IMG/VR virus record: IMGVR_UViG_3300045970_000272 | Coordinates: 1-50,884 of that record | Source: a virus | Reading direction: 5' to 3' (one strand) | DNA length: 50,884 bases | In this document: piece after piece, positions 5,892 through 48,531 of the stretch | Position numbering within the stretch: the stretch's first letter is position 1 | How the letters are laid out: each line of letters begins with the position of its first letter | Made by a program: the position numbers and the translations under genes | The notes under the pieces: model-generated | Told to the model about the DNA's origin: nothing | Database searches by the model: none | The model's input: only the letters and a program-made list of their open reading frames with translations

Positions 5892-6638
5892 ATGCCGTTC
5901 GATCGCAAGAAACTAATAGCCTTGAGAAACAACGTTCAAGCCATGATTGGTAAAATTGAACGTGAGGACAAGCTCGGCAACTTAGACAACATCATTAGTG
6001 AGAACACTAACGGTGCGATCACGGCGGCGTTTGCGCAGATGGAGTCACGCATGGAGCAGGCGATGTCCGCTCGTGGTGGTGGCGATTTGGAGGAGGTTAT
6101 TGAGAAGCTTGGTCGGCGCATCACGTCGGCGTACTCCAGTGCCTCCCCTAAGGACAGGACGGACGAGGTTATCACCGCCATCTCAAACATACGGTTCCCA
6201 GAGGTCAACTTCCCCAACACGGTATCTATCGACAACTTCCCTCCCCAAAAGATACCCAACCCCGTCACGAACATCAAAGCGACCATCGTGGGCGACACCA
6301 CAGGGTTGCTCGGTGGCGACACCGTCCACAAGTTCGGTGAGCAGACGGTGGCGGCAGGCAACACGGTCGCGTTGGCAACGTACACCGTCCCCGTCGACTT
6401 ATCTTTATTGGTGAAGGGCGTTTATGCGGAGGGGATAGACGACGGCTTATTCGCCCTCTACATTGACAGTACGAAGGTGTGGCAGGCGCGCAACTCATGG
6501 ACGCAGCGCAACGTGGAGTCCGACATTCAATTCAATTCAGTGGCGACAGGCTTGGTAGTCGAGCTGAGAGTGACCAATCTTAAAAATCTATCCAAGCAGT
6601 ATTCAGGAGGTTTCTATGGCATCAGAGTTAACCCGTAA
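5892..6638 (+). CDS. Virion-associated protein with coiled-coil N-terminus and beta-rich C-terminus
   Basis: The first 60 residues form a predicted helix beginning with a KKLIALRNNV motif that also opens the small protein at 9733-9936. Residues about 95-130 are Pro/Asn-rich, and residues 145-248 are strand-rich with alternating polar/apolar residues, compatible with a jelly-roll-like decoration or fibre domain. It follows the portal by 3 bases. The C-terminal layout resembles that of the 6847-7521 protein (a V-A-A-G-N-T type opening then repeated strands). The function is inferred from context: likely head decoration or fibre attachment. Confidence 0.6.
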   Translation: MPFDRKKLIALRNNVQAMIGKIEREDKLGNLDNIISENTNGAITAAFAQMESRMEQAMSARGGGDLEEVIEKLGRRITSAYSSASPKDRTDEVITAISNIRFPEVNFPNTVSIDNFPPQKIPNPVTNIKATIVGDTTGLLGGDTVHKFGEQTVAAGNTVALATYTVPVDLSLLVKGVYAEGIDDGLFALYIDSTKVWQARNSWTQRNVESDIQFNSVATGLVVELRVTNLKNLSKQYSGGFYGIRVNP

Positions 6639-37038: not shown

Positions 37039-37707
37039 TTATCTCCTGTAATAATTAACTTTTGCTAACATATCCTTGTTCGACCATTCCCAGAGCTTTT
37101 TGGCTGCCAGGAACGCTTCAAAGTCGTCCTCCATCCATTGGAACTTGTACACACCCTCGGGCATCAAAAGCAAGACGCCGATGCGCTTGATGTCCATGCC
37201 GTCACAGTGCTTGTAGGCGGACAATTGAAGCCCCGATTCCATGTAAATATCCTTCCCCGTTTTCACATCAATAATGCAATCGTCCCCTCCAACTTTGAGG
37301 TGAAGGTCCAATGTCCCGCCGTAGCCCTCTTTCTCGTTTACGACAGTCTTTTCATGCTCCAAGATAACAGCCTGGTACTCTTTGACCCAGGTGTCGAACG
37401 CCGTGGCGTACCCCTGGTACTCAGCGTTCTCTGGAGTGAGGACGCGCCCTGTTTCTTTGAAAGATTCAACGATTGAATGGACGGTTGTACCGCGATTCTT
37501 CGCCTTACCTGACACCGACCAGGGTGCTGCTAAGGCTTCCTTTTCACCGATGCCTGGGGTGCGGACTGTCGCCCAGTAAACTTCACGACCAAACCAGAAC
37601 CGAAGTGCTGGCTTGTCTATGATTTGCAAAATGCCTGTCACCGATGCGTAGGGTAATCCGTTGTGGAAATAAAACCCACCGCGCTTGTTTGATTTTTGAT
37701 TTGCCAT
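37039..37707 (-). CDS. PD-(D/E)XK nuclease (Cas4/RecB-like), 222 aa
   Basis: Motifs appear in the usual order: His77 in GTTVHSIVESF, Asp134 in GGTLDLHL, Asp147 and Lys149 in IIDVKTGK, and Gln161 in GLQLSAYKHC. This is the RecB/Cas4-like nuclease core, here without a helicase or iron-sulfur cysteines, so it is probably a phage exonuclease for recombination or host DNA breakdown. The ATG has no ribosome site and sits exactly 6 bases after a predicted -10 element, suggesting a leaderless message. Confidence 0.8.
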   Translation of the reverse strand: MANQKSNKRGGFYFHNGLPYASVTGILQIIDKPALRFWFGREVYWATVRTPGIGEKEALAAPWSVSGKAKNRGTTVHSIVESFKETGRVLTPENAEYQGYATAFDTWVKEYQAVILEHEKTVVNEKEGYGGTLDLHLKVGGDDCIIDVKTGKDIYMESGLQLSAYKHCDGMDIKRIGVLLLMPEGVYKFQWMEDDFEAFLAAKKLWEWSNKDMLAKVNYYRR

Positions 37708-38033: not shown

Positions 38034-39295
38034 ATATCCTCCTTCATATTTTCTATCTTCCCGTAGGAATAATCGGTTAATACATAACTCGTTGCAAGTC
38101 GCCCACTACGGTTCTTGGCGAGTACGAGCTTTCTCCGCTCGTCCTCGTGGTTCTTTGGGTCGCCAAATTGGTAGATGAGCGCGCAGTCCGCAGCATTTTC
38201 AAGATTGCCTGACCCCTTGAAACCAAACACTCCGCTGTTCTCGAACTGCTCGGTCTTTTGGGAGTCGCGGTTCATTTGGGAGAAGGCAACCACAAAGACG
38301 TTCTTTTCCACCGCGAGGTGTTGGAGCTGGCGCACCACCATGTTCATGCCGTCGTACTCGCTCTTCTCGTTGGTGGAAATGTTTTGGAGGTAATCAACCA
38401 CGATGCACTTCACGTCGTGGGCGTAAATCTGGTACAGGATCTCAAACATGGCGCGATCCCAATCGTGGACGTAATCCACGCAGTAAAGCGGTTCGTGCTG
38501 GAACGCCTCCAAAGCTGCGTCAAACGCGTCCTGCTTCTCTTGTGGCGCGGAACCGTGTTCGATGTCGTCAAGGGTTATGGTGGAGTCCTCCATGCGCTGG
38601 ATCAGGGTGCGCCAAAGCAACTTCTCTCGGCTCATTTCAAAGGAAACCCAGAGGACGGGGACGCCCTCCTTGAGAAATGCGTTGACCATTTTGGTCGCAA
38701 CCCAAGTCTTTCCCACGGACGTCTGCCCTCCAATGAGCCACATTTCCTGGGGGCGCATACCGTAAGTCACAAAGTCTATGGCACTAAACCCCGTGGGAAT
38801 ACCTTTACCTCCAGCCTCGCGCGTGCGCTTCCACTGCTCTCGCAGCTTGCGTACCCCCTCAATGTTGGAGGCGTCCTCCCCATCAAAGCGCACCTGGTTG
38901 AGGTCTTGCATCATGCGTACCGCCAACTCGTCAGGTTTGGTTTTGGTTAATTCGCACTCCTTGAGGGCTTTCTCCAGGGTAATCTTCAAATTGGCAAGCT
39001 GGGTACGGGATTTGATTTGCTTGATGGGATCTTCAAGCTGCGTGGCGTAGTAGTAGCTCGACCAATAATTCAGGATCATGTCCTTGTCGATGCCGTCCTC
39101 CTCGAGTTTGGCGTAAACCATGCGGTTGTCGACGTTGGATTTGGAGGAGAGTTCCTTCAAAGCAACGAAGGCTCTTTTGCAAAGGGGATCACTAAAGTCA
39201 TATTCCGTCAGGCTGTGCAGCAAAATTGGCAGAGTTTCCTTTGGGTAGAGTATTGCCGTGCGGATTACCCGCCCCTCGTAGTTAACCTTGCCCAT
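37997..39295 (-). CDS. dnaB: DnaB-like replicative helicase
   Basis: The 432-residue protein has the DnaB/RecA-like motor: Walker A GGQTSVGKT (residues 189-197), Walker B CIVVDYLQ with Asp301, then AFSQMNRDS, GSGNLENAADCALIY and LAKNRSGR. The N-terminal 100 residues match the helical N-domain that forms the hexamer collar. It unwinds DNA at the phage fork. It overlaps the upstream replisome-organiser-like gene by 14 bases, consistent with a loader-helicase pair. Confidence 0.9.
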   Translation of the reverse strand: MGKVNYEGRVIRTAILYPKETLPILLHSLTEYDFSDPLCKRAFVALKELSSKSNVDNRMVYAKLEEDGIDKDMILNYWSSYYYATQLEDPIKQIKSRTQLANLKITLEKALKECELTKTKPDELAVRMMQDLNQVRFDGEDASNIEGVRKLREQWKRTREAGGKGIPTGFSAIDFVTYGMRPQEMWLIGGQTSVGKTWVATKMVNAFLKEGVPVLWVSFEMSREKLLWRTLIQRMEDSTITLDDIEHGSAPQEKQDAFDAALEAFQHEPLYCVDYVHDWDRAMFEILYQIYAHDVKCIVVDYLQNISTNEKSEYDGMNMVVRQLQHLAVEKNVFVVAFSQMNRDSQKTEQFENSGVFGFKGSGNLENAADCALIYQFGDPKNHEDERRKLVLAKNRSGRLATSYVLTDYSYGKIENMKEDMWGVYLTKKQKI

Positions 39296-40070
39296 GTTCT
39301 TCTAACCTTTCCTTTTCAAACCTGATGTGCGCGTCACGGTGTATTTGATCACGTTCCATATTTCCCTCTTTACCTCGCCTTTCGCAAGCGGCAAGTCGAT
39401 CCCACTCCTCATCGGTAAAAGGGGAAGCCTGCTTAACACGAGGTTTTGGAATAAACACGGGTTCACCCCGTGGCTCGTTTGCACTCCGCACCCACGGAGT
39501 TTCGCTCGTTACTGGTTTGGGTGGGGGGGGCGCGTTAAGCGCACCCACCCCGTCACTGTTTTGGTTATCAGATATCTTTTTATGGAAAGTAAAGGAAATT
39601 TCATTTCCTTTCCTTTCCTTTAGGGGGCGACGCGTCCCCTGCGCGGGACGACTCGTTACGGATGAGTTACGGTTAGCCTGGTTCTGCTGCACCATTGAGT
39701 ACAAATCGGTCTTTTCTTTATCTAAATACGCTTTGAGCTTCGTTGTGTAGTGGTGGTCTACGTGTTTGAGAACTTGTGGGATATACAGTCTGCCGTCGGT
39801 TGACTGATAGGTGAGTCCAATCTCGTCCATTACTGCCAAAATCTCTCTAAGACGGTCGGGGGTTACGTTGCATTCAATTGCAAGGGACTCCGCGTCGTGC
39901 GAGGGGTCGACCTTGCCCCAATCTTCAAACGGGATGCTTGCCCCCAATGTTTCCTGAGCAATTTCACAAAGATCCCACCATACCGCCTTTCCCTCGTTAC
40001 CGCATCGATCTACCAGTTTCTTTATTTTGGGGTCACGCCTAGAGTTCGTTTCATGACCAAAATACTTCAT
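39282..40070 (-). CDS. Replication initiator/replisome organiser-like protein, 262 aa
   Basis: The N-terminus (YFGHETNSRRDPKIKKLVD, then GNEGKAVWWDLCEIAQE) matches the winged-helix domain found in phage replisome organisers of the Lin1244/DnaD-related type. Residues about 150-215 are a Pro/Ser/Asn-rich linker, and the C-terminus is a charged helix that could contact the helicase. ATG 40070 has AAAGGAG upstream and follows a predicted promoter. It probably binds the origin and loads the downstream helicase. A GC-rich inverted sequence near 39525-39545 lies within the linker codons. Confidence 0.75.
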   Translation of the reverse strand: MKYFGHETNSRRDPKIKKLVDRCGNEGKAVWWDLCEIAQETLGASIPFEDWGKVDPSHDAESLAIECNVTPDRLREILAVMDEIGLTYQSTDGRLYIPQVLKHVDHHYTTKLKAYLDKEKTDLYSMVQQNQANRNSSVTSRPAQGTRRPLKERKGNEISFTFHKKISDNQNSDGVGALNAPPPPKPVTSETPWVRSANEPRGEPVFIPKPRVKQASPFTDEEWDRLAACERRGKEGNMERDQIHRDAHIRFEKERLEEHGQG

Positions 40071-41943: not shown

Positions 41944-42494
41944 TCAGCCTCCTCGGAGTCCACTCCAAAGTGTTCGTCCACCATGCGCGTGAGCCGTTCT
42001 ACATCGGCAAACACAGCTTCGTATTCCTCTTTGGTCACGCTGGTCGACATTCGATAGGCGAGGCATTTGCGCTGGATCTCAAGGGCAAGCGTGCCGATCT
42101 CCGTACCTTGGAACACCTTGGGTATGTTGAAATTGAACAGGTGGTCGCCTGCGCCGTTGAACCAGATCGCGATGGCGTGGTTTTGGTCGAGGTCGCACTT
42201 CTTATAATCGTCCATCATCCTGGTCACGCGCTCGGCGTGCTTTGCAAACAGTATGAGGTTGTAAATGAACCCCGTACCAAACTCCGACTTGTCGGCGGTC
42301 GTGTTGCGTTTCATATGATCCTTTTCTTGAGTTAATTGATTTTCTTTAATTGCTCGACGGATACATCCTGCAGCGATATTGAGACGCCAACGTAGCACGC
42401 GAAGGTGTTCATCATCGTGCGGTTGATCTATCGCTTGGGTTATGTGGGTGAGTGCCTGATTAAGGACGATTTTGGTTATTAATTTTGATTTCAT
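41934..42494 (-). CDS. Hypothetical protein, 186 aa, with a probable internal start
   Basis: The full frame starts at 42494 with an ATGA overlap and gives a helical protein. An in-frame ATG at 42314 (residue 61) has GAAAAGGATC upstream and would make a 126-residue shorter form beginning MKRNTTADKSEF. The part after residue 75 contains a mixed helix/strand region (NHAIAIWFNGAGDHLFNF). The N-terminal 60 residues may be a separate helical domain or a second gene's product. No family is recognised. Confidence 0.55.
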   Translation of the reverse strand: MKSKLITKIVLNQALTHITQAIDQPHDDEHLRVLRWRLNIAAGCIRRAIKENQLTQEKDHMKRNTTADKSEFGTGFIYNLILFAKHAERVTRMMDDYKKCDLDQNHAIAIWFNGAGDHLFNFNIPKVFQGTEIGTLALEIQRKCLAYRMSTSVTKEEYEAVFADVERLTRMVDEHFGVDSEEAEWA

Positions 42495-42931
42495 ATCGTT
42501 TCTTTTACTTTGGCGACTAAATCTGTATTTATTATTCCAGACAGTTCGTTGTAAGTGTCATACTTTCCCTGCCACAACTCAAGCTCATTCAACGCCCGCG
42601 TGAGGATTTGCGCAAGCATATCTTTGTCGGAGAGTATTCTGTAGGTGGAATAGTAACCGCGAACGGGGCGGTCATCTATTCTCACCGTACAGTTTTGAAA
42701 GGCTTGCACCTTCCTGTGGTCGATAACAACGCGGACGCTGTTGATTATTTGGCGCGCCTCGTGAATTCTCCAGTTATCGGACGCAACGCCGTCGTCCCAA
42801 GTGAACTCGTTGTGAAGTGGGTGGAGTGACGAAGAAGCCTCCGCCACTAATACCTCTGGTTGGATACTCCCGTCCCGTTTCTCAATCTCAGAGAGTATCT
42901 GAACTTTAATTTCATTATTAGCTTTATTCAT
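42491..42931 (-). CDS. Hypothetical phage protein, 146 aa
   Basis: The central HPLHNEFTWDDGVASDNWRI and RQIINSVRVVI segments match a pattern I associate with unnamed phage early proteins. The C-terminus is helical. AATGGAGG precedes the start. It is the first gene left of the G-poor repeat region, so its promoter may lie within or at the edge of that region, but no clear promoter was seen. Confidence 0.6.
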   Translation of the reverse strand: MNKANNEIKVQILSEIEKRDGSIQPEVLVAEASSSLHPLHNEFTWDDGVASDNWRIHEARQIINSVRVVIDHRKVQAFQNCTVRIDDRPVRGYYSTYRILSDKDMLAQILTRALNELELWQGKYDTYNELSGIINTDLVAKVKETI

Positions 42932-43006
42932 AAAGCCTCCATTAATTATTATTTCAACACACCTCGCCTTGCCATATATTGACTTAACAATACTGACCGC
43001 GACTCA

Positions 43007-43736
43007 CCATAACTGCCACGTCATACCGCCCTATCCTCAACCCAACTCGACTCACCATTACTGCCACACCCTACCTGTCCATGTCCTCCACTACTCGACC
43101 CGACCCTCCCCAACTGCCAGACCATGACGCGCCACAATACACCGTGACTCACCCCTCCTTACCTCTGCGCACCACTACTGCCCTACCGCACCTCACATTT
43201 CCCCACCGAACAATCCGTACCATAACTCGACTCACCACTACTGCCGGTCCGTGCCTAACCAAGACTCACCCCGCACCCCTTACGTTGCGCCACCGCTCCT
43301 CACCGCTACAGCCTCAACGCTCCTATCCATGACTCAACTTTCCCCATCGTACCTTTCCATTACTGCCTAACCATAACTTACCGCTCTCAGACCTACCCCG
43401 ACATTCCATACCGACCAGTACACTCCTAACCTTTACTGCCATCCGTACCGCACAGACCTCGGCTCTCCATAACAACCGCGACACTCCACTACTGCCAAAC
43501 CAATCAAAACCAATCCCGTGCGGACCCCAACATAACATTCCTTTACTGCCGTCCCCGACGTTCCAGAACTATCCCACCTGTCCATAACAACCATAACTCA
43601 CCGTTACAGCCAAACCGTGACAACCTAATCAGACCTCGCCTCCCTCTCCATTACTGCCAAACCGAGACCCACCTGACCTCTCCCCACCTGACCAAATTAC
43701 ACCAAAACATTACGCGCCCTCCGGACCATTACTGCC
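43007..43736. repeat. Array of degenerate CCATTACTGCC repeats in an 837-base non-coding region
   Basis: Twelve copies of CC-N-N-TAC-(T/A)-GCC or close variants start at 43007, 43055, 43172, 43235, 43303, 43357, 43430, 43486, 43540, 43601, 43648 and 43726, with a partial one near 43109. Steps are mostly 47-78 bases. Further CCATAAC(A/T) units lie between. The + strand is very poor in G; read on the minus strand it shows GG at intervals of about 5 or 9 bases. ACTCGACTCACC precedes two copies. The gap spans 42932-43768 between two leftward genes and holds no believable gene. It may be a replication origin, a binding array or a structured leftward RNA. Confidence 0.7.
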
Positions 43737-43741
43737 ACGAA

Positions 43742-43763
43742 GGAGGGGTGGGCAGCCCCCTCC
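43742..43763 (-). terminator. GC-rich hairpin after the 43769 gene
   Basis: GGAGGGG (43742-43748) pairs with CCCCTCC (43757-43763) around an 8-base loop, five bases past the stop of the leftward gene. There is no U run on the minus strand (TTCGTGG follows), so termination may be partial. It separates the gene from the repeat region. Confidence 0.45.
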
Positions 43764-43768
43764 ACAAT

Positions 43769-44440
43769 TTATGAGGATTTCACCTCAAACGTACCCGAAT
43801 CTCCATCTCTCTCAGGTCGCCATTCGCCGAGTCCTTGTGAGAAACCCGCCGTTTGAATCAGATTTGCAATCTGTTCTGGTGAGAATAAGTCTGCATTGAA
43901 ACGGATAACTAGAGCCATGCTCCAATTACGAACCGCTCCACGGTAGCGCAAGTCTGCGCTTCCCATGCCGACCCGAACCATGTCCTCCCGAAGGATAACT
44001 TGGCTGGTTTTGGGGTCGTATGCGAACACGTTTTCACCCTTTTCACCATTCGCCATTTCTGGCTTCTTAGCTGGTTTGAACGGTTTGCCGTCAATTAAGA
44101 CGCGCACCAAGCCGTCTTGATCTCCTTTGATGAAGATCGCGCCACGGATCATGGTCATTTTCAAACCTTCTATCGACCGAGCTGCTCCAACTACCGCCTG
44201 TTTGATTGCCAAAGCTGGGAAGCAGATGTAGCCTTCTTGGTCGTAGTAGAAACTAGCCAAGTATTCTTCAATGGGGTTACGCACGCCGTGGGGTTGTTTG
44301 ACCCTTTTAGCTTGCTTGGCTCGGATCATTTCCTTTGCTTTCTCTGACCACTTGTGAAAGATGATCGGACTGACACTGGCGATTTCGAGCTGCATTGTTT
44401 GAATATTTGGTGCTGGAATTACTATGTTTGTTTCTGGCAT
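43769..44440 (-). CDS. Conserved-looking phage protein with GEWRPE-type end, 223 aa
   Basis: The order SPIIFHKWSEKAKEMI near residue 25, FPALAIKQAVVGAA near residue 75, VRVGMGSADLRYRG near residue 150 and GEWRPERDGDSGTF near the C-terminus matches a family of early phage proteins of unnamed function. The strand/helix order and glycine-rich ends recall RRM/RAMP-like RNA-binding folds, but that is only an impression. It is probably produced early with the other leftward genes. Confidence 0.6.
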   Translation of the reverse strand: MPETNIVIPAPNIQTMQLEIASVSPIIFHKWSEKAKEMIRAKQAKRVKQPHGVRNPIEEYLASFYYDQEGYICFPALAIKQAVVGAARSIEGLKMTMIRGAIFIKGDQDGLVRVLIDGKPFKPAKKPEMANGEKGENVFAYDPKTSQVILREDMVRVGMGSADLRYRGAVRNWSMALVIRFNADLFSPEQIANLIQTAGFSQGLGEWRPERDGDSGTFEVKSS

Positions 44441-46378: not shown

Positions 46379-47584
46379 ATGAACAAAGATATGCGTCCGA
46401 TTAGTAGTTTGACTCTGTGGGACAAGAACCCCAGGTCAATCTCCAAAGAATCATTTGAGTCCCTCAAGAACAAAATCAAACGCTGGGGTCAGTTCAAACC
46501 GCTGTTAATGACTCCCGAGGGGATCATCATTGGTGGCAACATGAGGTTGCGCGCGTACAAGGAGCTGGGTATCAGCGAGGCGTGGGTGTCCGAGATCCAC
46601 CCCAAGGGTGAGGCTGAGATGATTGAGATTGCGTTGGCGGACAACGAACTCGCAGGTCGCTGGGACAGGGACGCTTTGGCAGAATTGGTGTACGGCTACA
46701 AAGACGAGATCAATTTGGGCGACTACCAGCTAGACTTAGGCAAGCCTGCCGACTTAAACCAACTCCTTTCACAGTACGGTCCCTCCGCCGAGGAGGACGA
46801 AGTGCCTGAGGTGTCCGATGAACCGCCCGTGTCGGTACGCGGTGAAATCTACGAACTCGGTCAGCACCGCTTAATGTGTGGCGACTCCTGTTCGTTGGAC
46901 GACGTAACCCTGTTGATGGACGGCAAGAAAGCTGACATGGTTTTCACTGACCCTCCCTACAACGTCAACTACGGCGAAACAATGAAGGACGAGCTGCGTG
47001 GCGGTAACCGCACGATCATGAACGACAACATGGGCGACGCTTTCCCTCAATTCTTAAACGATGTGTGCGTCAACTTGGTCATGTTTACCAAGGGCGCGAT
47101 TTACATTTGTATGTCCTCCTCTGAACTGACCACCCTCAAGGAAGCCTTTGTCAGCGCAGGTGGGCATTGGTCAACTTTCCTTATTTGGGTCAAGAACACA
47201 TTCACAATGGGACGCTCCGACTACCAACGCCAGTACGAGCCTATTTTGTACGGGTGGAAAGAGGGTACGGATCGTTACTGGTGCGGTGCGCGCGACCAGG
47301 GCGACATCTGGGAGGTCAACCGACCCACCAAGAATGATTTGCACCCCACCATGAAACCGTTGGAACTGTGCGAGCGCGCTATCAAGAACTCGTCCAAGAC
47401 TGAGGACATCGTGTTGGATCTATTCTTAGGCTCAGGCTCTACGCTGATCGCTGCGGAACAGACGGGGCGCGTGTGCTTTGGTATGGAACTCGATCCCAAA
47501 TACTGCGATGTGATACGTAAGCGTTATGCAAAATACATGAACAAGGAGGAAGAATGGCAGACACTAACTCCCAAACTCGCATAG
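46379..47584 (+). CDS. ParB-domain/DNA methyltransferase fusion (beta class N6-adenine or N4-cytosine)
   Basis: The first 110 residues are a ParB-like domain (KIKRWGQFKPLLMTPEGII, GGNMRLRA at 52-59). Residues about 155-390 are a methyltransferase with motif IV DPPY at 191-194 and motif I FLGSGST at about 349-355, the order of beta-class enzymes, plus the HPTMKPLEL segment. Such fusions modify phage DNA, often to escape host restriction. No restriction partner is present. It overlaps the S-adenosylmethionine synthetase gene by 31 bases, so cofactor supply and use are coupled. Confidence 0.85.
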   Translation: MNKDMRPISSLTLWDKNPRSISKESFESLKNKIKRWGQFKPLLMTPEGIIIGGNMRLRAYKELGISEAWVSEIHPKGEAEMIEIALADNELAGRWDRDALAELVYGYKDEINLGDYQLDLGKPADLNQLLSQYGPSAEEDEVPEVSDEPPVSVRGEIYELGQHRLMCGDSCSLDDVTLLMDGKKADMVFTDPPYNVNYGETMKDELRGGNRTIMNDNMGDAFPQFLNDVCVNLVMFTKGAIYICMSSSELTTLKEAFVSAGGHWSTFLIWVKNTFTMGRSDYQRQYEPILYGWKEGTDRYWCGARDQGDIWEVNRPTKNDLHPTMKPLELCERAIKNSSKTEDIVLDLFLGSGSTLIAAEQTGRVCFGMELDPKYCDVIRKRYAKYMNKEEEWQTLTPKLA

Positions 47585-48531
47585 CCGAGTCGGTTACCTA
47601 TTTGCACCCTGATAAAATCTGCGACCAAATCTCCGACGCGGTCGTTGATGCCTGTTTGAAAGTCGACCCGTACGCTCGGGTGGCGGTTGAAACAATGGGC
47701 GGTCACGGCATACTCACTCTCACGGGTGAAATCACAATGGACGAACGAATTGATGTGGCTCAGGTTGCAGGCGACGCCTACCGCGCGATGACGTACAAGG
47801 ACATCGGCGTGCAGACAAACATCGTGCAACAGTCCGACGAGATATCCAACAAGGTCGACAACGGCGGGGCTGGCGACCAGGGTGTAATGGTCGGGTACGC
47901 CTGCCAAGACAACCCAGACTTCATTCCTCAAGAGCTGCACTTGTCGCGCAAACTACTCGAGAACTTCAAGCGTGACGGTAAAAGCCAGGTGGTGTTGGAC
48001 GACGGACACCTGACCTCGGTGGTGCTGTCGGTTCAAAACGAATCCAAGGAGGGATTGGAAGCTTACGTCCGCAAAGTCCTAAAGAGTTATGGGCCAATCG
48101 ACTCGCTCTACTGCAACAACATCGGTTCATTTTCTATGGGAGGGTTTGACGCCGACACAGGGGTAACTGGTCGCAAGATCGTGGTGGACGCATACGGTCC
48201 GCGCGTACCTGTGGGGGGCGGAGCTTTCTCGGGCAAGGACGCAACCAAGGTAGACCGCTCTGCTGCGTACATGGCGCGCTGGTGTGCCTTGAAGTTACTT
48301 CACGACTCGGGTGCAGATGAGGTCACGGTACGTTTGGGTTATGTAATAGGAAGCGAGTATCCTTTACTGCAAGAAGCGTGCATTGACGGCAGGTACCAAA
48401 AGATACACGAGGACTGTCGTCCACAAGCAATTATCGAACGGTTTGATTTACGAACACCCATTTACCAAAAGACAGCACGGTACGGTGCATTTGGGAGTGG
48501 GATGTTCAAGTGGGACAGATACGATGACTGA
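47554..48531 (+). CDS. metK: S-adenosylmethionine synthetase (phage-encoded)
   Basis: The enzyme makes S-adenosylmethionine from methionine and ATP. Signatures are present: HPDK at residues 18-21, GGHGILTLTGE near 49, GAGDQG at 105-110, KSQVVLDDG near 143, and GGGAFSGKD at 221-229. The length of 325 is below the usual 380-400 of bacterial enzymes, but the characteristic end (TARYGAFGSGMFKW) is present, so it is compact and not cut short. AAGGAGG precedes the ATG. It overlaps the methyltransferase upstream and the small terminase downstream (8 bases). Confidence 0.9.
   Translation: MADTNSQTRIAESVTYLHPDKICDQISDAVVDACLKVDPYARVAVETMGGHGILTLTGEITMDERIDVAQVAGDAYRAMTYKDIGVQTNIVQQSDEISNKVDNGGAGDQGVMVGYACQDNPDFIPQELHLSRKLLENFKRDGKSQVVLDDGHLTSVVLSVQNESKEGLEAYVRKVLKSYGPIDSLYCNNIGSFSMGGFDADTGVTGRKIVVDAYGPRVPVGGGAFSGKDATKVDRSAAYMARWCALKLLHDSGADEVTVRLGYVIGSEYPLLQEACIDGRYQKIHEDCRPQAIIERFDLRTPIYQKTARYGAFGSGMFKWDRYDD

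Follow-up and report, generated by a model that had tools for sequence, protein, structure and literature searches.

A repeat array beside a RAMP-fold gene in an uncultivated phage is very probably the guide array of a diverged VIPR system

The repeat region at 42,932–43,768 of the window, meaning the whole 50.9-kb virus record analysed here, is very probably the guide array of a phage-borne Viral Interference Programmable Repeat (VIPR) system. VIPR, described for the first time in a preprint of April 2026, has a gapped guide code and was proposed as an ancestor from which the RAMP proteins of CRISPR arose (PMC13142463). Such a system, located in phages, combines the RAMP protein Vipr with an accessory gene, vap, and with vrRNAs made of GGY/NN repeats, or YNNGG repeats, which read double-stranded DNA as NN doublets with one base skipped, mostly at codon wobble positions (PMC13142463). 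Seven VIPR types are distinguished, some with staggered, overlapping vrRNAs (PMC13142463). The window locus has a minimal RAMP homolog, noncoding GGY/NN repeats in a relaxed form, 9–15 units per guide interval, within the range of 9–16 repeats known for VIPR guides, and a place on a phage record. Judged from its sequence, it is a diverged VIPR member whose array can be read, carried by an uncultivated phage.

The composition of the region is strongly skewed, with 44% G and 11% C on the minus strand and a GC skew of -0.61 at 43,001–43,500, the most extreme value in the window. A preliminary description of this DNA had noted the extreme strand bias correctly, but its statement that G is nearly absent from the plus strand slightly overstates a G content of 11%. 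It had also described twelve copies of an 11-base motif at steps of 47–78 nt. On the plus strand of 42,990–43,740, CCATTACTGCC occurs 10 times with ≤1 mismatch; 1000 shuffles of the region that preserved its dinucleotides gave 0.03 copies on average and at most 2. This shuffle check, proposed with the original description, shows that base composition does not explain the motif count and that the array is non-random. With ≤2 mismatches, 28 copies are present across the full window compared to 11.4 expected. The relaxed pattern GGC(A/T)GT(A/T)xx on the minus strand recovers 13 copies rather than twelve, at the same steps of 47–78 nt. The regularly spaced GG doublets reported for the minus strand are also real, as the GG-GG autocorrelation is 1.80, 1.64 and 1.61 at lags of 5, 10 and 15 against 1.0 ± 0.18 in shuffled sequence, with a spectral peak of GG doublets at 4.85 nt. 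The true repeat unit, overlooked in the preliminary description, is the 5-nt GGYNN, and the 11-mer is a boundary element inside it. Two short ORFs overlap the region (43,081–43,332, plus strand; 43,323–43,538, minus strand). No Rfam family came close to threshold in a search of the region, and BLASTN of the array against phages found no match, as expected because the guides are variable. A single exact CCATTACTGCC also lies outside the array at 39,827–39,837, within a replication-initiator-like ORF.

The gene upstream of the array, vipr (43,769–44,440, minus strand; 223 aa, PHROG 4652), encodes a Cas7/Csm3-like RAMP-fold protein according to both profile comparison and an AF2 model. A profile of 69 vipr homologs retrieved one good PDB chain, 36pp, the 'SUSP1 Vipr protein' (E=2.6e-11). 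The AF2 model of the window Vipr has a pLDDT of 87 and its top 50 PDB fold matches are all CRISPR RAMP entries (type III, type VII, and Cas7-11), in which it resembles the Cas7/Csm3 subunits. No Pfam domain was found in the window Vipr, a PADLOC search with the Vipr family gave no match, and none of the genes searched around the array matched a cas family. Between the vipr stop codon and the first array element is a G+C hairpin, GGAGGGG..CCCCTCC (43,742–43,763, minus strand), with a predicted RNA folding energy of -16.9 kcal/mol that shuffled sequences also reach. A sister phage, G006, has a counterpart hairpin, GGGGCG..CGCCCC, at the same place after vipr, and a role as a processing or leader element is possible.

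Downstream of the array, the gene at 42,491–42,931 (minus strand; 146 aa, PHROG 15946) is taken as a candidate vap because it is a conserved neighbour of vipr: 43 of the 68 viral loci have a homolog of it no more than 2 kb after vipr. Its AF2 model (pLDDT 93) found no PDB fold match at E≤0.001, with winged-helix regulators weakly alike at E ~1, and profile comparison with SUSP1 vap1 detected no homology. Scanning of viral contigs with the vap protein returned no loci. Both genes flanking the array are on the minus strand, like the array itself, and are probably parts of the same system, a link that the preliminary description did not make.

The array architecture was also examined on viral contigs that carry a homolog of vipr (PHROG 4652). 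On many of them a stretch of 200–1000 nt, rich in G and poor in C, follows vipr on the same strand. Using a criterion of at least two GGCAGGNNNGG motifs ≤130 nt apart in the 2 kb after vipr, arrays were found downstream on the same strand in 56/68 related viral loci with enough sequence. Motif pairs number 233 in 135 kb beside vipr vs 23 in 1.27 Mb elsewhere, a density ~95 times higher downstream of vipr. A logo of 319 motif-centred stretches consists of GG-Y-N-N pentamers with near-uniform NN positions plus a GGCA tetramer, which occurs once per 44–59 nt repeat. Accordingly spaced motifs, at 44, 49, 54 or 59 nt (5k+4), account for 170 of 256 pairs. Arrays most often start with GGCA (35/64) and end with GGCA plus one unit (39/64), so boundary elements enclose guides on both sides. 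The regular guides of relatives contain 8–16 units, these bounds being the filter limits. Equivalent arrays adjoin vipr in unrelated phages and prophages of several phyla.

In the window, the vrRNA array spans 43,009–43,736 (minus strand), where 13 GGC(A/T)GTxxx boundary elements enclose 12 guides of 9–15 units per interval. The guides are formed of GGYNN-type units plus some 4-nt units. The unit form is relaxed to G(G/T)(T/A/C)NN, with position 2 often T and position 3 often A, and the extra 4-nt units disrupt the register in most intervals. Several window guides may be decayed, as their units depart from GGY and the 4-nt units break register. It is tentatively suggested that a variant of the code tolerates 4-nt units. 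Where such units lie inside an interval, trying several gap lengths gave no convincing decoding, and the guides described below were decoded from intervals in clean 5-nt register.

Two of the five guides scanned against viral contigs have credible predicted targets. The guide at element 43,367 (43,314–43,363, minus strand) has the doublets AT AA AC GG AA GA AT TA GC GA, which read I-K-T-G-K-(D/E)-I-Y-A-E. A scan with the final nine of these doublets (18 letters) gave four matches, one of which lies in a PD-(D/E)XK exonuclease gene of the 49-kb phage G001 (contig L135). The tenth doublet also matches, giving 20/20 under a 1-nt skip; the doublets are in register with the codons, and the skipped bases fall at wobble positions. 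G001 is a distantly related phage with its own vipr, vap and arrays, and its exonuclease is 46–47% identical to that of the window. At G001:13735–14800 (L149), vipr, vap and two arrays are followed by a gene that by eye resembles thiamine-diphosphate enzymes of the acetolactate synthase kind.

The guide at element 43,182 (43,119–43,178, minus strand) has the doublets GT GC GA AA GG GA AC GT GT GC AT CT, reading V-A-(D/E)-(N/K)-G-(D/E)-T-V-V-A-I-L. All eight of its matches are in codon phase and four are LexA-type repressors, including a 23/24 match to the repressor gene of contig L145. LexA-type repressor genes are present on contigs L141, L143, L145 and L146, with LexA confirmed by Pfam in L141, L145 and L146; filamentous-phage genes are present on at least L145 and L146. 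Both of these encode a Zot/pI-type assembly ATPase (in L146 by similarity to L145 judged by eye), and L145 also encodes a G2P-type Rep and a serine recombinase, which identifies them as filamentous-phage-like elements. The repressors likely control lysogeny in elements that have the same host as the window phage.

The other three scanned guides have no credible target, and their 0, 1 and 0 matches set the background. The guide at element 43,550 (43,497–43,546, minus strand; AA AT AT GG CC CG TT TT TT TT) and that after 43,736 had no matches in the viral contigs, and the single match of the guide after 43,440 is interrupted by in-frame stops.

The reading rule was examined with 320 guides by varying the skip. 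A skip of 1 nt gave seven matches with E<0.01, or five excluding the two of the window, while a skip of 0 or 2, three permutations and a reversed order each gave 0–1. A skip of 3 gave four, the top three of which fall in the locus that the guide comes from and are taken for unmasked array. These E-values are per guide, uncorrected for the number of 320 guides, and they do not apply to the two window matches because G001 and L145 were themselves retrieved by scanning with the same guides. Guides of other loci were not selected by target scanning. For the window's two matches, independent support comes from the homology of the G001 site to the window's best self site, the matching of additional doublets and the clustering of matches in one repressor family. 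In the window, in G001 and over all loci together, the guide doublets agree with positions 1–2 of sense codons, and not with 2–3 or 3–1. Computationally, these comparisons indicate a 1-nt-skip target code at this locus with the skip at the codon wobble position.

Comparison with G006 separates conserved from variable parts of the array. This sister phage matches 54 window ORFs, overlapping frames among them, and its vipr and vap share 65% and 57% identity with those of the window, where both ORFs are intact. At the same position G006 has an array without a recognisable gene; relatives carrying a protein-coding gene here would have spoken against the preliminary description, and an array was found instead. 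The G006 array has the same irregular GGCAGT style with nearly all guides different, and the style is therefore a lineage trait. The exception is guide 43,497–43,546, whose first seven doublets are common to both phages. Across these, the NN letters are identical at 14/14 positions and the scaffold at only 14/21, with 7/21 changed (Fisher p=0.017). Relatives of the window's portal protein, which is encoded alongside other phage genes, are all distant and occur in phages of Arthrobacter, Microbacterium and Cellulosimicrobium. At 46,379–48,531 the window also carries a ParB-like/DNA methyltransferase gene followed by an S-adenosylmethionine synthetase gene, an order which suggests that the phage makes its own methyl donor.

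Under a 1-nt skip, none of the five window guides tested has a perfect match in its own genome. The best, at 17/20, is that of guide 43,314–43,363 to the window's own exonuclease gene (37,238–37,266, minus strand), at the same codons as the G001 target. The G006 exonuclease also scores 17/20 at these codons. With three positions off the guide, the window exonuclease should escape targeting, as predicted from the sequence. Similar cases occur in relatives. A guide of a Sphingomonas soli prophage (L084, ~6040–6110) spells the Vipr motif EDMVRVGM, a stretch nearly invariant across the Vipr family, and matches 84/131 vipr genes at 16/16, that of the window included. The vipr of the prophage itself matches at only 13/16, its copy being EDMVRIGL with an AGG codon. 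Likewise, a guide of L063 against the DPPYNV motif of a methyltransferase matches L036 at 19/20 but the gene of L063 at 14/20. Together with the exonuclease these make three cases of self-sparing. It is tentatively proposed that this branch consists of compact repeat-guide-repeat arrays whose guides are aimed at highly conserved coding motifs of genes that their own genomes also carry, such as those for the exonuclease, DNA methyltransferase and Vipr, with the self copies altered at just these codons. If true, this would be a built-in self/non-self rule in RNA-guided warfare among related phages.

Other explanations of the region account for fewer of these observations. The array could be a decayed or inactive VIPR array in which vipr and vap remain while the guide units have drifted and few guides function. 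The many 4-nt and non-GGY units in the window compared to relatives such as L036 and G001 would agree with this, as would the three of five scanned guides without a target. However, the vipr and vap ORFs are intact and conserved with G006, which shares the irregular style with a different guide set, the guide common to both has retained its NN letters, and two window guides match genes at 20/20 and 23/24. A decayed or inactive array is unlikely.

The candidate roles put forward in the preliminary description included an iteron-type replication origin, which might be bound by the Lin1244-like replication protein encoded at 39,282–40,070. Repeats in the early region, a strong skew and replication genes 3–5 kb away would suit an origin. 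Yet the copies and the bodies between them are variable, their spacing is irregular (47–78 nt), the NN letters obey codon statistics, and the unrelated phages and prophages mentioned above have equivalent arrays beside vipr, leaving an origin scarcely credible. It is also highly improbable that the region is a G-rich RNA, a switch-region-like R-loop region or a protein-titrating decoy RNA without guide function. A sense strand with G far above C and the GG periodicity are what such an RNA would have. Against it stand the logo of fixed GGY and hypervariable NN, codon-like doublets, skip-1 target matches in excess of controls and linkage to a Vipr gene of published guide function. Neither of the earlier suggestions, a decoy RNA or a structured G-rich RNA, is supported, given the scarcity of self-pairing in C-poor GGYNN strings and the target information held in the variable NN letters.

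As a VIPR locus, the region would work largely in the way already published (PMC13142463). Its order is vipr (43,769–44,440), vrRNA array (43,009–43,736) and candidate vap (42,491–42,931), all leftward. The array would be transcribed leftward, in the sense of its flanking genes; the leftward RNA of the preliminary description thus pointed in the right direction, with expression predicted from sequence. The suggested binding array for a phage protein was likewise close, since the phage-encoded RAMP protein is predicted to bind the repeated RNA. Vipr subunits would polymerise on this RNA, about one for each 5-nt GGYNN unit. The doublets of consecutive units would pair with double-stranded DNA in the pattern NN-x-NN-x, and once bound to its target the complex would repress the gene. 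The GGC(A/T)-G(G/T)xxx element would act as a shared boundary, ending one guide and starting the next like a CRISPR repeat. The guides are predicted to act against competing mobile elements: against a distantly related tailed phage with a VIPR of its own, through its exonuclease gene, and against filamentous-phage-like elements, through their LexA-type repressor gene. The locus supports the VIPR code independently through its natural targets, codon-phase statistics and NN letters kept over scaffold. It also suggests a route of self-avoidance by substitutions at conserved codons hit by the phage's guides, and its guides predict which mobile elements compete within the same host.

Among known systems, class 1 CRISPR Cas7/Csm3 effectors share with the window the RAMP fold and a guide flanked by repeated elements. 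They differ in that the window has no palindromic repeats and no Cas1/2 or other cas genes were seen, and in its noncontiguous 2-of-3 reading. Assignment to class 1 CRISPR-Cas was rejected as the boundary element is merely 4–9 nt and variable, with no cas match among the searched genes around the array. TIGR-Tas, which has a Nop-domain Tas protein, was rejected on the RAMP fold of Vipr and its lack of a Pfam domain.

Closer likenesses are found in phages. The loci of Mycobacterium phage Saal gp51 and Gordonia phage Ecliptus gp19 have a homologous gene (tblastn) beside a GGCA-punctuated GGYNN array. Their boundaries are GGCAGG, compared to GGCAGT in the window, and in Saal the array is upstream of the gene, unlike in the window. 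Both are cultured phages in which the arrays (Saal, L133:2559–2809; Ecliptus, L134:3616–3880) are unannotated and the vipr genes are labelled 'hypothetical protein'.

The VIPR of Escherichia phage SUSP1 (type II; PMC13142463, PDB 36pp) has, like the window, a Vipr RAMP protein, an adjacent small gene (vap1 in SUSP1, a candidate vap in the window) and a noncoding GGYNN tandem-repeat RNA read with a 1-nt skip. The start of one SUSP1 vrRNA tail, GGCAGTAGCC, resembles the GGCAGTARY element of the window. The vrRNAs of SUSP1 number four, lie apart from one another, are ~100 nt long and have structured tails, whereas in the window the array is continuous, long tails are absent and the guides share short boundaries of the GGCA type. 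Between SUSP1 vap1 and the candidate vap no homology is detectable, and the window units are looser, some being 4-nt. A SUSP1-like type II assignment was therefore rejected on the continuous array, short boundaries and absence of vap1 homology. The description of staggered VIPR arrays with overlapping vrRNAs (PMC13142463 fig. S18) would fit a continuous array whose guides share boundaries, such as that of the window.
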